32,012 bases of DNA from the NCBI GenBank assembly GCA_018712565.1, contig DVGU01000068.1, forward strand, positions 1 to 32,012, read 5' to 3'. The notes beneath the pieces are model-generated. The model was not told where the DNA came from, made no database searches, and worked only from the letters and a program-made list of their open reading frames with translations. Position 1 is the stretch's first letter, and each line of letters opens with the position of its first letter. This stretch comes from Candidatus Faecimonas gallistercoris (GTDB lineage: Bacteria; Bacillota_I; Bacilli_A; RF39; UBA660). This document shows positions 6,984 to 15,660 of this stretch, piece by piece. A program made the position numbers and the translations under genes.

Positions 6984-7062
6984 TTGACAAATTATTTAGT
7001 TATTAATATAATGTTAATAACAAGTGATGAAACACTTGAAAAATTTTACTCTTTGTTATTAA
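6984..7062 (+). promoter_or_regulatory. NAD salvage operon promoter overlapped by a palindromic operator
   Basis: TTGACA (6984-6989) and TATAAT (7007-7012) with 17-base spacing form a perfect consensus promoter. The palindrome GTTATTAA-N7-TTAATAAC (6999-7021) spans the -10 box, so a bound protein would block polymerase. Downstream come a 6-bp inverted repeat CAAGTG/CACTTG (7021-7038) and a third half-site GTTATTAA (7055-7062). The same palindrome, equally placed, recurs at 14546-14568. Known NAD-operon repressors in bacteria include NiaR and NrtR; I cannot match this site to either from memory, so the regulator is unknown. Confidence 0.8.
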
Positions 7063-7090
7063 TAAAATGTAAATAAGAGGAGGAAAGATT

Positions 7091-7681
7091 ATGAACAAAG
7101 TGAAAAATTTAGAAGTTTATGAGGGGATGTTGATTGTTGTTGATATGGTGAGAGGGTTTGTCGAGGAAGGCGTTTTGCATGATAAAAATATTAAGAAGAT
7201 TATTCCTAGACAGATTGAGATTATTAAAGAAGCTCATAATCATGGTGATTTAGTTGTCTTTGTTAAAGATACTCATGATGTTGATGCTGTTGAGTTTAAG
7301 CGTTTTGGTAATGTTTCACATTGTGTTAAGAATACTAGTGAGGCAGAACTTGTTGATGAGTTGAAACCATATGAAACATTAGATGATACTGTTTCTATTG
7401 AAAAAAATTCAACTAGTTTTATGGAAGCACCAGAATTTAGAAAGATTGTTAAAAAGGCAACTAATATAGAAACAGTAAAATTAGTTGGTTGTTGTACGGA
7501 TATTTGTGATTTTAATGGGATTATGGGACTTGCTAATTATTATGATGAGTGGAATCGAGATGTAGATATAATTGTATATGAAGATGCTGTTGCTACTTAT
7601 AGTGAAGAAGAAAGAGGCGAATATGTTTCGGCTGCTAAATTGTTAATGAAGCAACAAGGAATTCAACTAGTTAAGAAATAA
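7091..7681 (+). CDS. pncA: Nicotinamidase (isochorismatase fold)
   Basis: The product converts nicotinamide to nicotinate, the first step of the deamidating NAD salvage route, in the cytoplasm. The 196-residue protein shows the nicotinamidase triad: D18 in IVVDMVRGF, K105 in SIEKNSTSF and C135 in GCCTDICD. Probable metal ligands are D60 and H62 in KDTHD. It is the first gene of the operon, with AAGAGGAGGA shortly before the ATG. The next gene uses its product directly, which makes nicotinamidase much more likely than another isochorismatase-like hydrolase. Confidence 0.92.
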   Translation: MNKVKNLEVYEGMLIVVDMVRGFVEEGVLHDKNIKKIIPRQIEIIKEAHNHGDLVVFVKDTHDVDAVEFKRFGNVSHCVKNTSEAELVDELKPYETLDDTVSIEKNSTSFMEAPEFRKIVKKATNIETVKLVGCCTDICDFNGIMGLANYYDEWNRDVDIIVYEDAVATYSEEERGEYVSAAKLLMKQQGIQLVKK

Positions 7682-7737
7682 GAATAATTTTTTAAAAGTT
7701 GATATTAATATTTTGATAAAAAGAAAGGGAGAGAAAT

Positions 7738-9210
7738 ATGAAAAATGAAAATTTAACATTATTAACTGATTTATATGAACTTACTATGATGAAAGGGTAT
7801 CATGATATTAAAAATGAAGATCGGGTGGTATTTGATGTCTTTTATCGTAGTAATCCATCTAAAGGAGGGTATGCTATTTGTGCAGGGTTAGAACAAGTAA
7901 TCGATTATGTCAAAAATTTGCATTTTGACAAAGATGATATTGATTACTTAAGAGAACTTGAAATTTTTGATGAAGACTTTTTAAATTATTTAGAGAATTT
8001 TAAATTCACGGGAAATATTTATGCAATTGAAGAAGGAACAGTTGTTTTTCCAATGGAACCGTTATTGAAAGTAGAAGCTCCAATTATAGAAGCACAGTTA
8101 GTGGAAACGGCGATTTTAAACATTATCAATCATCAAAGTTTGATTGCGACAAAAGCTGCTCGGGTGTGTCATGCAGCAGAAGGTGATGGCGTAATGGAAT
8201 TTGGATTAAGAAGAGCGCAAGGAGCAGATGCAGGAACTTTAGGAGCAAGAGCTGCTATGATTGGTGGCTGTTGTGCTACTAGTAATGTATTATGTGGTAA
8301 ACAGTTCGATGTTCCTGTTGCTGGAACTCATGCTCATAGTTGGATTATGAGTTTTCCTAGTGAATATGAGGCGTTCAAAAAATATGCTGAACTTTTCCCA
8401 AATAATGCGACTCTTTTAGTGGATACTTATGATACCCTTGGTTCTGGTGTTCCTAATGCAATTAAGGTTTTTCAAGAGTTGAAGGATGAAGGTAAGATGC
8501 CTCAAAAATATGGAATTCGTCTAGATAGTGGTGATTTAGCTTATTTGTCTAAAAAAGCAAGAAAGATGCTAGATGATGCAGGATTTTATGATGCTACTAT
8601 TTGTGCTTCTAATGATTTAGATGAATATTTAATTGAATCTTTAAAAGGACAAGGAGCGAAGATTAATTTATGGGGTGTAGGAACTAGTCTAATTACTTCA
8701 CGTGATTGTCCAAGTTTTGGAGGAGTATATAAGTTAGCTGCTATTAAGAAAGAAGGAAAAATGATTCCAAAAATTAAGTTAAGTGAAGATAGAGTAAAAA
8801 TTACTAATCCTGGTGATAAACAAGTTTATCGTTTCTATGATAAAAATACAGGTAAGATTAAAGGGGATATTATAGGGTTTACTAGTGAAGAATATAATGA
8901 GGGACAAAATACTGTTTTATTTGATCCTGTAGATACTTGGAAAAAGACAGAGTTATTACCTGGTACTTATACTGTAAGAGAGTTGTTAAAGCCTATTTTT
9001 ATCGATGGTAAATGTGTTTATGATAGTATTCCAGTAATGCAAATTAGAGATTATTGTACTAAAGAAAAAGAAACGTTGAGTGATGAGAATAAAAGATTTT
9101 TAAATCCACATCCGGTACATGTAGATTTAAGTTATCCATTATGGGAACAGAAAAATGAAATGATTAATGAAGAGAAAGCAAAAAAAGTAAATAGAAAGGT
9201 AATGAAATGA
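7738..9210 (+). CDS. pncB: Nicotinate phosphoribosyltransferase
   Basis: This 490-residue enzyme makes nicotinate mononucleotide from nicotinate and PRPP, with ATP hydrolysis. Its N-terminus LLTDLYELTMMKGY is the family signature. FGLRRAQGADA (about residues 155-165) and GTHAHSWIMSF (196-206) are present; the latter contains the conserved histidine region that is phosphorylated during catalysis. RLDSGDL (about 262-268) is the phosphate-binding region. The length is that of the standard bacterial enzyme. AAGAAAGGGAGAG precedes the ATG, and the gene overlaps the Nudix gene by an ATGA junction at 9207-9210. Confidence 0.96.
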   Translation: MKNENLTLLTDLYELTMMKGYHDIKNEDRVVFDVFYRSNPSKGGYAICAGLEQVIDYVKNLHFDKDDIDYLRELEIFDEDFLNYLENFKFTGNIYAIEEGTVVFPMEPLLKVEAPIIEAQLVETAILNIINHQSLIATKAARVCHAAEGDGVMEFGLRRAQGADAGTLGARAAMIGGCCATSNVLCGKQFDVPVAGTHAHSWIMSFPSEYEAFKKYAELFPNNATLLVDTYDTLGSGVPNAIKVFQELKDEGKMPQKYGIRLDSGDLAYLSKKARKMLDDAGFYDATICASNDLDEYLIESLKGQGAKINLWGVGTSLITSRDCPSFGGVYKLAAIKKEGKMIPKIKLSEDRVKITNPGDKQVYRFYDKNTGKIKGDIIGFTSEEYNEGQNTVLFDPVDTWKKTELLPGTYTVRELLKPIFIDGKCVYDSIPVMQIRDYCTKEKETLSDENKRFLNPHPVHVDLSYPLWEQKNEMINEEKAKKVNRKVMK

Positions 9211-9845
9211 GAGTAGAAAAATTAGAAGAATTAAAGGGTTATATTAATGAGTTAAAAGCTATTAAAAAAACTTTAGTTCCATCGGATTATGTGTATGATA
9301 ATATGCATAATCCTGTTAAAAGGAAAGGGTTTATCAATGTTAAAAAATATATGGTGGAGCTTGCTCGGGGAGATGTTGTTGTAAGAGAAAAAATCGTAAA
9401 AGGTGGTAGGGATGGTAGTGCTGTTATCATCTTACCATTAACAGAAGATAATAATACTTTATTAGTAGTACAATCTAGAGCTTTTACAAAAGATACGGTT
9501 TGTGTAGAGTTACCTGCAGGATATATTGAAGCTGGTGAAAGTCCTATTGCTGCTGGTAAAAGAGAACTAGAAGAGGAAACTGGTTATGTCCCTGAAAAAA
9601 TAGAACTACTTGGAAGTTATTATCAAGATTAAGGATGTAGTGCTGCTTATAATTATAGTATGCTAGCTCTAAATTGTAAAAAGTTAAAAATGCAAAATTT
9701 AGATCAAGATGAGTTTATACGTTATTTTGAATGTAGTTTTGATGAGGCAAAAGAATTAGTAAAAAGAGGTTATATTACTGATTTACAATCACAATATACC
9801 ATAGAAAAAGCAAATTCATATATATATCAAAAAATAAAAAAGTAA
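9207..9845 (+). pseudogene. ADP-ribose pyrophosphatase-like Nudix gene with in-frame TAA
   Basis: The first 141 codons hold an intact Nudix box (G105 to Y127: GYIEAGESPIAAGKRELEEE then TGY). A TAA stands at 9630-9632, and the same frame then continues without a gap (GCSAAYNYSMLALNCKKL and on) to 9845. The second part reads as the normal C-terminal domain of an ADP-ribose pyrophosphatase of about 212 residues. One substitution, for example CAA to TAA, explains the interruption; no frameshift is needed. The family hydrolyses ADP-ribose or related NAD breakdown products, which fits the operon. There is no C-terminal winged helix, so it is not an NrtR-type regulator. The truncated product lacks its last third. 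Possibilities are recent pseudogene, sequencing error or readthrough. Confidence 0.85.
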
Positions 9846-9902
9846 CATGAGATTTAGTAAAAAGATAAAATCTTGATACACTATAAAAAAGGAGAGATAC
9901 AA

Positions 9903-11834
9903 GTGAAAGAGTATGGATTTATCAGAGTAGGTGCTATTGTAAATAAATTAGCTTTAGCTAATCCTATGAAAAATGCAGAAGAAATAGTTAAAGAGATAAA
10001 ACAGGCAGTAAAAAGAGGTGTATCGATTGTAGCAACTCCAGAATTGTCTTTAACTGGATATACTTGTGGTGATTTATTTTTACAAGATCAATTATTGATT
10101 GATAGTGAAAAAGCTTTACGAAAGTTATTAGATGAGACAAAAGAGTTAGATATTATTTCTATTTTAGGAATGCCAATTAGACATGATAATCAGTTGTTTA
10201 ACTGTGCTGTAGTAATTGAAAAAGGACAAATCTTAGGAGTAGTACCAAAGACTTATATTCCTAATTATCAAGAGTTCTATGAAGCTAGATGGTTTTCTTC
10301 TAGTAGAGATTTAAAGACAGGGAAGATGAAGTTGTTAGATCAGGTTGTTCCTATTTCTACGAATTTATTATTTCAAGATAAGAAATTAAAAAATATTACA
10401 TTTGGAATTGATATTTGTGAAGATTTATGGACTGTTTGTCCTCCTAGTAATCATCATACTTTACATGGAGCAACTATTATCTTTAATTTATCTAGTAGTA
10501 ATGAACTTATTGGTAAGCATGAATATCGTAAAGGGCTGGTTGCGATGCAGTCATCTAAAACAATCTCTGCTTATGTTTATGTATCTAGTGGAGTGATGGA
10601 GTCAAGTTCTGATCTTTTATTTGGTGGAGCTAGTATGATTTATGAAAACGGTTCTATGTTAGCAGAAAATAGGCGATTTGAAATAGAAAGTAATATAATT
10701 ACTGCGGATATTGATGTTTTAAAACTTGCTAATGATCGTATTAAAAATAGAAGTTATATGCATATGGTTGATGATATAGAATATAACATTATCAAAGTGG
10801 ATGTTTTTGATACTATATTAGAATTACAAAGAGATTATAAAGAATATCCATTTGTTCCTTCTGATCAATTTGAAAGAAATAGACGATGTGAAGAAATTAT
10901 AGAGATTCAGTCAAGTGCTTTAGCGAGACGTTTAATTCAACTTGGTAATCCTAAATGTGTCATAGGTATGTCTGGTGGACTTGATTCTACTCTTGCTTAT
11001 CTTGTCATCGTAGGAGCTTTTGAAAAATTAAAACGAGATATGAAAGATATTATTGGTGTTACGATGCCAGGGTTTGGAACAACAGATAGAACGTATCAAA
11101 ACGCTATTGATTTAGTAAAAGAGTATGGTGCGACTTTAAAAGAAATTAGTATTAAGGATGCATCTATTCTACATATGAAGGACATTGGACTTCCAGAGAC
11201 AGATAGAAGTATTACTTATGAAAATATTCAAGCAAGAGAACGTACTCAAATTTTGATGGATGTTGCGAATATGGAAGGTGGATTAGTCATTGGTACGGGA
11301 GATTTATCAGAACTTGCTTTAGGCTGGTGTACTTATAATGGAGATCATATGAGTATGTATGCAGTCAATACCTCTATTCCTAAAACTTTAGTTAGATATT
11401 TAGTTTCTTATATGGCAGATATAACGACTGGTAAGAAAAAAGAACTTTTAAATGATATTCTAAAAACACCAATTTCTCCGGAACTTTTACCACCGGATGA
11501 AGCAGGAAATATTTTACAAAAAACGGAATCTAGTATTGGACCTTATGTATTGCATGATTTCTTTCTTTATCACTTTTTAAGATATGGTGCTACACCTAAG
11601 AAAATCTATATTTTAGCAAAACATACTTTTAAAAATAGTTTTACTAAAGATGAGATAAAAAAATGGTTAAAAGTATTTATTAAAAGATTTTTTACACAAC
11701 AGTTTAAAAGAAATTGTATTCCTGATGGAGTAAAAGTAGGCAGTATTAGTCTATCTCCTAGAGGTGATTTACGTATGCCAAGTGATGCTAATTATGATGC
11801 TTGGTTAGAAGAGATAGAAGATTTAGATACTTGA
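9903..11834 (+). CDS. nadE: Glutamine-dependent NAD+ synthetase
   Basis: This enzyme amidates nicotinate adenine dinucleotide to NAD+, with ammonia from glutamine. The start is the GTG at 9903, 6 bases after AAGGAGAG; the frame is open further upstream but without another spaced site. The 643-residue protein has an N-terminal nitrilase-type glutaminase domain with triad E47 (ATPELSLTGY), K116 (VVPKTYIP) and C172 (GIDICEDLW). It also has a C-terminal synthetase domain with the PP-loop SGGLDST (357-363). Tandem stops TGA and TAA end it. The NadD step between pncB and nadE is not encoded in this window. Confidence 0.95.
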   Translation: MKEYGFIRVGAIVNKLALANPMKNAEEIVKEIKQAVKRGVSIVATPELSLTGYTCGDLFLQDQLLIDSEKALRKLLDETKELDIISILGMPIRHDNQLFNCAVVIEKGQILGVVPKTYIPNYQEFYEARWFSSSRDLKTGKMKLLDQVVPISTNLLFQDKKLKNITFGIDICEDLWTVCPPSNHHTLHGATIIFNLSSSNELIGKHEYRKGLVAMQSSKTISAYVYVSSGVMESSSDLLFGGASMIYENGSMLAENRRFEIESNIITADIDVLKLANDRIKNRSYMHMVDDIEYNIIKVDVFDTILELQRDYKEYPFVPSDQFERNRRCEEIIEIQSSALARRLIQLGNPKCVIGMSGGLDSTLAYLVIVGAFEKLKRDMKDIIGVTMPGFGTTDRTYQNAIDLVKEYGATLKEISIKDASILHMKDIGLPETDRSITYENIQARERTQILMDVANMEGGLVIGTGDLSELALGWCTYNGDHMSMYAVNTSIPKTLVRYLVSYMADITTGKKKELLNDILKTPISPELLPPDEAGNILQKTESSIGPYVLHDFFLYHFLRYGATPKKIYILAKHTFKNSFTKDEIKKWLKVFIKRFFTQQFKRNCIPDGVKVGSISLSPRGDLRMPSDANYDAWLEEIEDLDT

Positions 11835-11888: not shown

Positions 11889-12938
11889 ATGAAAATAGTA
11901 AATAATAAATTTGGGGAAGGAATGCTTTACCAAGAAGAGGATTTAGAGGGAAAAATTTATGCAACAAGTGCTGCTTGTATGTCTGTATGGAGTGATATGC
12001 TATCTTTTGCGAATAAATACAAAGATAGATTTGTAAGTGAGGTACGTGATGCTGATAATATTGTGGTATTAGGTTGTCAGGTAACAGATCTTGCTGTATT
12101 AAATGATATAGCTGTTGCAAGCAGATTACATGATGAAACAGAAAAAGATATATTTATGGGAGGATGTCTTGCTCAAAGAATGGATATACCATTACCAGAA
12201 TATATTAAAAGGTTAGATGTAGTTAGAGTAGTAGGGTAAGAGTTAGATGATAGAAGTTTAGTTCATTATGAAAAACCATTCTGGGTACCAGGGTTTGAAG
12301 AAAGTAATGATAATTTAAAAGATGGGAATTTGTTTAGAAATTATTATCCATTAAAGATTGGTGCTGGTTGCCATGGTAAGTGTAAATATTGTACTATTCG
12401 TCATACTAGAGGAGAAGGCTATGAAATGGTGCCAGAAGAACAGATTGAAGAATTTTTAAATCATGAGCACGTGGTGTTAACATCTGATAGTCCTACTGTA
12501 TCTCAAGTAAAGGCTTGGTGTAAGATTGCCAAGGAATGTAATAAAGAAATATCTATTAGAAATATAGAGCCTCAGAACTTAATACAATGTAGGGATGAAT
12601 TATTAGAGTTAGCTGATAACCATTTATTAGACATTGTTCATTGTCCAGTACAAAGTTTTGATCCAGAATTATTAAAAGCCATGAATAGAAATGTATCTAG
12701 TACAAATGCGGCAGTAGATTTATTACATGAATTAAAAGAAAAAGAAGTTGTTACGGCTACTAATATTATTATCGATTATACAGTAGAAGGCAAACTATAT
12801 CCTAACCATGACATTGAAAAATTACAAGAAAACTTTGATTATTATTCTTGGAATCCTTATTTTGATGGTAATTTTGATATGGATAGAGCGAAACAAAGAT
12901 TTAAAAAATATATCACCAAAGAAAAAGTAACTCAATAA
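11889..12938 (+). pseudogene. Methylthiotransferase-like radical SAM gene with in-frame TAA
   Basis: Two ORFs (11889-12239 and 12330-12938) lie in one frame, separated only by a TAA at 12237-12239; the sequence between them reads on as protein (ELDDRSLVHYEKPFWVPGFE). The first part resembles a UPF0004 domain, with three cysteines spaced for an auxiliary Fe-S cluster: C30, C63 (LGCQVTDLAVLND) and C93 (GGCLAQRMDIP). The second has the radical SAM motif C161-x3-C165-x2-C168 followed by TIRHTRGEGY, as in MiaB/RimO-like methylthiotransferases. The total of about 349 codons is shorter than MiaB, and no C-terminal TRAM domain is seen. A strong ribosome binding site (GGGGGAGG) precedes the ATG. It closes the NAD salvage operon. 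Substrate is unknown, and the gene is probably inactive if the TAA is real. Confidence 0.75.
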
Positions 12939-14530: not shown

Positions 14531-14598
14531 TTGATTATTTTAGTAGTTATTAATATAATGTTAATAACAAATGTTTTTTTTACAAGATGTGTTATTAA
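14531..14598 (+). promoter_or_regulatory. Second copy of the NAD-operon-type promoter and operator
   Basis: TTGATT (14531-14536) and TATAAT (14554-14559) have 17-base spacing. The palindrome GTTATTAA-N7-TTAATAAC (14546-14568) covers the -10 box exactly as at 6999-7021, including an identical central heptamer TATAATG. A further half-site GTTATTAA stands at 14591-14598. Only the operator and -10 region are shared with the first copy; the sequences on both sides differ. This argues for selection rather than a duplicated block. Confidence 0.75.
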
Positions 14599-14625
14599 CA
14601 AAAATATAATAAGATGGGGCGTGAT

Positions 14626-14742
14626 ATGCTGGAAATGACAATTGGTAAAGATAAAGTAGAGAGATTATGAATTGATAATGGAATAAAAACGGAAGTAAAA
14701 GAATTTAGAAAAAAATATCTTTTTAAGGTTGATATTCAATAA
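14626..14742 (+). pseudogene. Possible small ORF split by TGA in the leader of the RlmN-like gene
   Basis: From an ATG at 14626 a frame runs 14 codons to a TGA at 14668-14670, then stays open for 23 more codons to a TAA at 14740-14742. The composition after the TGA is protein-like (GIKTEVKEFRKKYLFKVD). A weak GGGG precedes the ATG. It may be a remnant of a short gene, a leader peptide of 14 residues, or chance in AT-rich DNA. Confidence 0.25.
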
Positions 14743-14766
14743 TAAAAAAAGAAAGAGGTGGATATA

Positions 14767-15660
14767 ATGGAATATAAAGTGTTTAATAGTAGTGAAGGTA
14801 ATGTTTGGAAATATGTATTTACTAAGGATGATATAGTTTTAGAAGCAGTATTATATAAATATAATGACTTTTATGAAAGAACAGTGATTTGTTGTAGTGT
14901 AATGAGTGGATGTCCGGTAGGATGCAAATTTTGTGGAACGGGAGCTAATTTTATTAGAAACCTTACTAGTGATGAAATTGTTGAACAAATTCTGAGTGTA
15001 TTACGTGATAAAAAAATTATAACGGATATTAATGAAAAGTGTAAAAAGTTACAATTTATGTTTATGTCTATGGGAGAACCGATGCTTAATTGGACGGAAG
15101 TAGAAAAAGCAATTCGAATCTTACACAAGAAGTTTAGTAATGCCCAATTATTACTATCTACTATAGGATGTAATAATGATGATGTTTTTTCACAGATAAT
15201 TTCATTATCAAAAGAAATAGATAAAGTTGGTTTACAGTTTTCTATTCATAAATCTGATGATATACAAAGAAGTAAGTTAATTCCTTTTCATAAGAAAATG
15301 AATTTAGAAAAAATAAGAGATGCAGGAATTATATGGTGGAAAGAAACTAATAGAAAACCATTTTTAAACTATTGCATCGATGGGACAAATAATACAGAAG
15401 AGGATTTTATAAACTTAACACATTTATTTTCACCAGTGATATTTAATTTTACTTTTAGTGTTGTATGTTCTAAGAATGAAAATATGAAGGAAAAATCATT
15501 TAGAAATTTAGAAATAATTAATAATTTTCAAAATAAGTTTTTAGAGAAAGGATATAATGTAAGAATGTTTAATCCTGCTGGACAAGATGATATTGGTGGA
15601 GGTTGTGGACAATTATGGTATGTTCAGGACTGGTTAAGAAAACATAAAAAAATAAAATAA
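14767..15660 (+). CDS. Short RlmN/Cfr-like radical SAM protein
   Basis: The 297-residue protein has the radical SAM cluster motif C49-x3-C53-x2-C56 (GCPVGCKFCGTG) and SMGEPMLN (102-109), which matches the RlmN/Cfr GMGEPxxN motif. Both cysteines used for methyl transfer in RlmN seem to be present: C42, seven residues before the first cluster Cys as in E. coli RlmN, and C280 in DDIGGGCGQL, which matches the DIxAACGQL end of that family. It lacks most of the N-terminal helical domain that RlmN uses for RNA binding (only about 40 residues precede C42). The ATG at 14767 is chosen because GAGGTGG is spaced for it; an in-frame GTG at 14758 lies inside that site. The gene is under the same operator as the NAD salvage operon. 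It could methylate an RNA or another substrate; housekeeping RlmN itself is doubtful. Confidence 0.8.
   Translation: MEYKVFNSSEGNVWKYVFTKDDIVLEAVLYKYNDFYERTVICCSVMSGCPVGCKFCGTGANFIRNLTSDEIVEQILSVLRDKKIITDINEKCKKLQFMFMSMGEPMLNWTEVEKAIRILHKKFSNAQLLLSTIGCNNDDVFSQIISLSKEIDKVGLQFSIHKSDDIQRSKLIPFHKKMNLEKIRDAGIIWWKETNRKPFLNYCIDGTNNTEEDFINLTHLFSPVIFNFTFSVVCSKNENMKEKSFRNLEIINNFQNKFLEKGYNVRMFNPAGQDDIGGGCGQLWYVQDWLRKHKKIK

Follow-up and report, generated by a model that had tools for sequence, protein, structure and literature searches.

A mostly phage-borne family of short RlmN-like radical SAM proteins is associated with NAD-making gene clusters and may methylate an NAD-related molecule

To our knowledge, RlmN and Cfr are known as methylases of RNA only. 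We take RlmN (TIGR00048) to be the C2-methyl synthase of A2503 in 23S rRNA and of A37 in tRNA, and Cfr, Cfr(B) and Cfr(C) to be the C8-methyl synthases of A2503. Their chemistry combines a methyl-cysteine with a radical SAM reaction: the methyl-carrying cysteine attacks C2 or C8 of the adenine, and a second cysteine resolves the resulting intermediate; when an RlmN-type enzyme lacks this resolving cysteine, its substrate should remain attached by a covalent bond. In both enzymes, an N-terminal helical domain of the HhH2 fold binds the RNA backbone, as seen in the cryo-EM work on Cfr (PMC13001441). The reconstitution of NAD by phages, in turn, has a published role against defences, in accounts that do not mention an RlmN-type enzyme (PMC12774641, PMC13232231, PMC7824862). 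In the open-access literature we found neither a prior link of RlmN-type enzymes to NAD nor a report of C-methylated NAD.

Here we describe a gene within a stretch of 32,012 nucleotides (hereafter, the window) whose product, which we call mini-RlmN, retains the catalytic part of RlmN and lacks its RNA-binding domain. Its main features are as follows:

14767 to 15660, + strand: mini-RlmN, predicted class A radical SAM methyl synthase, 297 aa
14890 to 14934, + strand: codons from C42 (methyl-transfer cysteine) through the CX3CX2C cluster C49/C53/C56, from the sequence and the RlmN alignment
15604 to 15606, + strand: codon of C280, the methyl-carrying cysteine (C355 in E. coli RlmN), from the RlmN alignment

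The protein matches Radical_SAM in Pfam, and the motifs that a first-pass annotation had listed, namely C42, C49/C53/C56, SMGEPMLN and DDIGGGC(280)GQL, are all present. Upon alignment with the RlmN of Klebsiella (388 aa, whose numbering is that of E. coli + 4), the cysteines fell on the methyl-transfer set of RlmN, with C42 at E. coli C118, C49/53/56 at C125/129/132 and C280 at C355, and E26 paired with an invariant glutamate of both RlmN and Cfr.

What precedes these residues is strikingly short: 41 residues lie ahead of C42, as against 117 ahead of C118 in E. coli RlmN, in agreement with the earlier estimate of about 40 residues and a missing helical domain. The ATG start yields 297 aa and an in-frame GTG at 14758 yields 300 aa, and since the entire stop-to-stop frame comprises just 304 aa, the lost domain cannot be regained through an earlier start. 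An AlphaFold2 model of the window protein (pLDDT 89, pTM 0.89), built from an alignment free of phage-collection sequences, superimposed on 5hr6, the E. coli RlmN cross-linked to tRNA, with Z 28.2 and 3.1 A over 273 residues (Foldseek was run as well). This match begins only at RlmN residue 80, which indicates that the N-terminal helical domain is absent, and the beta-extension is retained in the model; the profile match to TIGR00048 likewise begins at position 75. The short N-terminus is common to all of the ~115 homologues that we found. A truncation artefact or a wrong start can thus be ruled out, as the frame is closed upstream and all homologues are equally short. The core of the window copy is basic, with a net charge of +6 versus a family mean of -4.4.

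Mini-RlmN shares with RlmN the core fold, the CX3CX2C motif, both methyl-transfer cysteines, the conserved glutamate and the beta-extension, and with Cfr, Cfr(B) and Cfr(C) the residues of class A chemistry and the fold (9p0p, Z 21). A reading of mini-RlmN as either a plain RlmN or a resistance methylase of the Cfr type could draw on these common catalytic residues and on its profile scores, yet the scores themselves, 123.3 bits for the NCBIfam RlmN model TIGR00048 and 96 and 86 bits for the CfrAB and Cfr models, lie far below the respective cut-offs (290 for the RlmN equivalog, 530/550 for the Cfr models). In the tree, mini-RlmN falls outside the RlmN/Cfr clade and does not group with Cfr(B) or Cfr(C), and, unlike Cfr, it has neither an RNA-binding domain nor a resistance context. 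Moreover, contig C60 of the same genome encodes a separate, full-length RlmN, so that the housekeeping function of RlmN is already covered and mini-RlmN cannot be the only RlmN of this genome. Membership in either family is thereby refuted, and we consider this explanation barely credible; a Cfr-like role in antibiotic resistance, which had been raised as another possibility, found no support.

On the sequences compared, mini-RlmN instead is an overlooked, mostly phage-borne radical SAM family that carries the methyl-transfer residues of RlmN. The family forms a single clade (support 100/99) opposite RlmN plus Cfr, within which the window copy and four copies from Bacillota branch together (98/98), nested among viral members. 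Nearly all of the ~115 homologues come from large phages, among them isolated phages of Vibrio, Stenotrophomonas, Aeromonas and Salmonella. A single-protein query of IMG/VR yielded 42 relatives, a profile search of the same collection contributed the best 80 of 181 confirmed stretches, and a scan covering a single genome of each species found 31 loci. Matches in PHROGs were weak and unnamed only, and PADLOC gave no match of mini-RlmN to a known defence gene. The gene was present in 1 of 291 genomes of the bacterial family, i.e., in the window genome alone, and in 1 of 395 and 1 of 392 genomes sampled across the class and the phylum, which rules out a bacterial core gene. A viral member of 642 aa (L018:6801-8726) bears a big insert right at the CX3CX2C motif, with an intein-like start (CLPEETKILMDDF), and two more divergent short RlmN-like proteins of 274-291 aa on long branches (L051:6830-7654 and L115:2369-3244) belong to Moorella and Pectobacterium phages.

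Across the family, C42, C49, C53, C56, C280 and E26 are each conserved in 114 or more of the 115 homologues, with one outlier. The class A hallmark, a CX3CX2C motif plus two methyl-transfer cysteines in a single radical SAM domain, is therefore found family-wide. A second set of residues (S101, N201, C203, T229, S231, C234, F268 and P270) is near-invariant across the same 115 proteins and absent from RlmN and Cfr; in the model, these residues are predicted to sit at the strand ends of the barrel, beside the catalytic residues at the active-site end. Since the catalytic chemistry is kept and the pocket is remodelled, the substrate may well be a new one. Neither PMC4689488 nor PMC5130265 offered information bearing on these pocket positions. 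Mini-RlmN thus differs from RlmN in its missing HhH2 domain, its own pocket residues, its separate clade and its mostly phage distribution, and, as described below, in its NAD neighbourhood.

This neighbourhood emerged from blind clustering of the ORFs lying within 8 kb of mini-RlmN at 115 non-redundant loci. The top neighbour families were NAMPT/PncB (24), Nudix/NadM (18) and Prs (10), with NADAR, macro (recognised by sequence), NadE and PncA, as well as a phosphoesterase and RNA ligases, among the further leading ones. The NAMPT/PncB copies were concentrated close to mini-RlmN, with 21 located within 2.5 kb, 1 at 2.5-5 kb and 2 at 5-8 kb, corresponding to a density of 39 per Mb within 2.5 kb and 2-4 per Mb beyond. 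All 24 were co-directional with mini-RlmN, and neighbours overall were so in 402 of 490 cases. Among whole phage records with NAMPT, near-identical ones having been merged in part, the gene lay within 5 kb of mini-RlmN in 10 of 21, where 1.6 were expected (P ~5e-6). Individual phages illustrate the pattern: Vibrio phage 166E36-1 has an annotated NAMPT and a ribose-phosphate pyrophosphokinase just upstream of mini-RlmN; one viral locus (L137) runs PncA, radical SAM, Prs-like, mini-RlmN, NAMPT, unknown, macro, NadE; and another (L122) runs PncA, mini-RlmN, NadE. In their NAMPT-like, Prs-like, NadM-Nudix/NadR, NADAR and macro members, such clusters resemble the phage system NARP1 (Adps/Namat) and NAMPT-NadM/NadR salvage. 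The descriptions of these pathways consulted here, in contrast, contain no RlmN-type enzyme, and mini-RlmN would be an added modifying step. A few kb from mini-RlmN, one locus also has an ORF (L082:5583-6392) that by eye resembles an ADP-ribosylglycohydrolase (GD..GSRFE..DDTA).

The association is not universal. An NAD or ADP-ribose gene was recognised within 2.5 kb at 29 of the 115 loci and none at about three quarters, many of the contigs being short; in several phages NAMPT was located elsewhere or was not found, and in Stenotrophomonas phages, which gave no match to NAMPT, mini-RlmN sits among arrayed tRNA genes. The latter arrangement is one reason to ask whether mini-RlmN still methylates an adenine in RNA (in tRNA, e.g., A37, at an rRNA site, or in a 5'-NAD cap), with NAD genes kept alongside it because both counter host defences. 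That the nearest folds are those of RlmN with a cross-linked tRNA, and that RNA ligases recur as neighbours, would fit this explanation as well. On the other hand, the RNA-backbone-binding domain (PMC13001441) is missing throughout the family, and the density of tRNA genes, at 52, 61 and 84 per Mb with growing distance from mini-RlmN, showed no decay and hence no enrichment nearby, which speaks against a tRNA-linked enzyme.

Bacterial loci add a further point. In a Ca. Ventrenecus locus (L076), the order is Nudix, 134-aa ORF, PncA, PncB, mini-RlmN, NadE, radical SAM, NadD, CinA-like, NadK-like and NrtR-like, some of these names, as in L078 and L085, having been assigned from sequence or analogy. 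In this bacterial NAD operon, PncB and NadE immediately flank mini-RlmN, a placement that RNA methylation leaves unexplained, and altogether we regard an RNA target as unlikely. Other bacterial loci show different arrangements of NAD genes: Prs, mini-RlmN, NadD and NrtR, with mini-RlmN directly after prs (L077); NadD, NadE, a transporter, mini-RlmN, an unknown gene and an NrtR-like gene (L078); PncB, a kinase and mini-RlmN (L075); PncA, mini-RlmN and NrtR in Ornithinimicrobium (Actinomycetota; L087), where the genes overlap or almost do so; and PncA-PncB-Nudix divergent from mini-RlmN in Saccharibacteria (L085). The first-pass annotation's view, in which a divergent subfamily may act on another target and is tied to NAD salvage, thus gains support from the separate clade, from the second, full-length RlmN, from the closed upstream frame and from NAD genes beside orthologues in several bacterial phyla and many phages; the exact substrate is putative. 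A second small radical SAM gene occurs in two NAD clusters that hold mini-RlmN (L076:12824-13522 and L137:6093-6911).

In the window itself, the connection to NAD runs through a shared operator, for which the relevant features are:

6984 to 7012, + strand: promoter of the NAD operon, TTGACA-N17-TATAAT, read from the sequence
6999 to 7021, + strand: 23-bp operator of the NAD salvage operon, identical to that before mini-RlmN; a second, weaker copy at 7055-7077
7091 to 11834, + strand: NAD salvage operon with pncA (7091-7681), pncB (7738-9210), truncated Nudix gene (9207-9632) and nadE (9873-11834)
14531 to 14559, + strand: promoter upstream of mini-RlmN, TTGATT-N17-TATAAT, with its -10 box within the operator, read from the sequence
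14546 to 14568, + strand: 23-bp palindromic operator GTTATTAATATAATGTTAATAAC before mini-RlmN, exact match
14591 to 14613, + strand: weaker second operator copy, 2 mismatches
14626 to 14742, + strand: scar of a 134-aa ORF (start MLEMTIGKDKVER, end ...VKEFRKK) with an internal deletion, by comparison with loci L073 and L165

Exact matches to GTTATTAATATAATGTTAATAAC number two in the whole genome, at 6999 before pncA-pncB-nudix-nadE and at 14546 before mini-RlmN; the palindrome overlaps the -10 boxes of both, and a weaker copy lies downstream of each. In genomes of the same genus, both operators are syntenic and mini-RlmN is absent; the second operator there drives the 134-aa ORF, Prs and NadD, followed by, among others, CinA-like, NrtR and NadK-like genes. 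Given the scar of the 134-aa ORF between operator and gene, mini-RlmN, as judged from this sequence comparison, has taken over an NAD-controlled promoter at the place where prs stands in its relatives. The operator link to NAD salvage that the first-pass annotation had proposed thus stands, with its origin corrected: mini-RlmN appears to have replaced NAD genes (134-aa ORF, prs, nadD ... nrtR, nadK) behind an operator that already existed.

The regulator acting at this putative operator is probably NrtR, since the genus relatives encode it, as at L165:14643-15533. The loci resemble an NrtR regulon in that NAD operons carry the operator, in that the exact 23-bp palindrome is shared by mini-RlmN and NAD genes, and in that same-genus genomes encode NrtR in their second NAD operon, as do L077 and L087 next to mini-RlmN. 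In the window's own genome, which is 89% complete, we found no NrtR, and a search of it for Prs and NadK, run without a positive control, gave no match; all three stand behind the same operator in relatives, and either gene loss or the incomplete assembly may account for this. The 134-aa protein, which has no Pfam match (L165:9818-10219, L073:1593-1994, L076:7467-7868), leads the genes behind the NAD operator in genus relatives and precedes PncA in L076. The window's Nudix protein (9207-9632) is cut to 141 aa, with 211-243 aa in relatives. Downstream of nadE, a methylthiotransferase-like radical SAM gene (11889-12938; UPF0004 + Radical_SAM), conserved in the NAD operon of the genus, has an in-frame stop at codon 117, where relatives (L073) have Q.

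That the window copy sits at a site of gene loss, and that many loci lack NAD neighbours, might indicate a mobile phage gene without any role in NAD metabolism, which often lands by NAD cassettes in variable regions. We find this improbable, since the linkage is found again in Bacillota, Actinomycetota, Saccharibacteria and distant phages while gene order and pathway type differ; spacings are short, some genes overlap, and all NAMPT copies nearby run in the direction of mini-RlmN. Overall, we consider the association of mini-RlmN with the NAD pathway to be strong and very likely genuine.

As to its function, the retention of all mechanism residues of RlmN and Cfr makes methyl transfer to an adenine-like sp2 carbon the likeliest reaction. 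In such a putative cycle, a first SAM would methylate C280, a second SAM would yield the 5'-deoxyadenosyl radical, the Cys-CH2 radical of C280 would add to an adenine at an sp2 amidine carbon, and C42 would resolve the adduct. With the HhH2 domain gone and the pocket rebuilt, the target adenine would most likely reside in a small molecule. We thus tentatively favour, at a little short of even confidence, an RlmN-derived class A methyl synthase that serves NAD salvage instead of the ribosome and whose putative substrate is a small-molecule adenine. The recurrent partners PncA, PncB, NAMPT and NadE act on the pyridine part of NAD, which, together with the rebuilt pocket, could be taken to mean that mini-RlmN C-methylates the nicotinamide or nicotinate ring, or another NAD precursor, rather than adenine. 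All residues of the adenine chemistry are retained, however, and we know of class A chemistry on adenine C2 and C8 only, which renders a pyridine target quite unlikely.

For an adenine target, the candidate substrate would be NAD+ or a near relative (NADH, NAAD, ADP-ribose). Because the partners in the NAD clusters vary (NAMPT, PncA/PncB, NadE, Prs, NadM), their common factor would be NAD itself or its adenylate half, and it is from this, combined with the retained class A residues, that we propose methylation of NAD+ or ADP-ribose. The C2- or C8-methylated product might still function as a cofactor and serve phage defences based on NADases or ADP-ribose less well as a substrate or signal precursor; the NADAR and macro neighbours and the published role of phage NAD reconstitution suggest such a protective role. 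Phages would then use mini-RlmN beside NAMPT, Prs and NadM, and a few bacteria would have placed it in their NAD operons. In its full form, the proposal that phages and a few bacteria run an NAD+ pool marked by an adenine C2 or C8 methyl (on NAD+ or ADP-ribose), which host NADases, TIR cyclases and ADP-ribose sensors cannot use, is speculative and rather doubtful.

The repeated presence of mini-RlmN in the NAD-making clusters of phages and bacteria suggests that its probable methylation target is an NAD-related molecule rather than the ribosome. More than 100 phage proteins with intact methyl-transfer residues, no RNA-binding domain and a tight linkage to NAD clusters point to a modification within NAD metabolism that has gone unrecognised, a putative step at the centre of the conflict over NAD between phages and bacteria. 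Should the proposal of a marked NAD+ pool be true, such NAD would be the first natural C-methylated form, and mini-RlmN the first class A methyl synthase to act on a small molecule.
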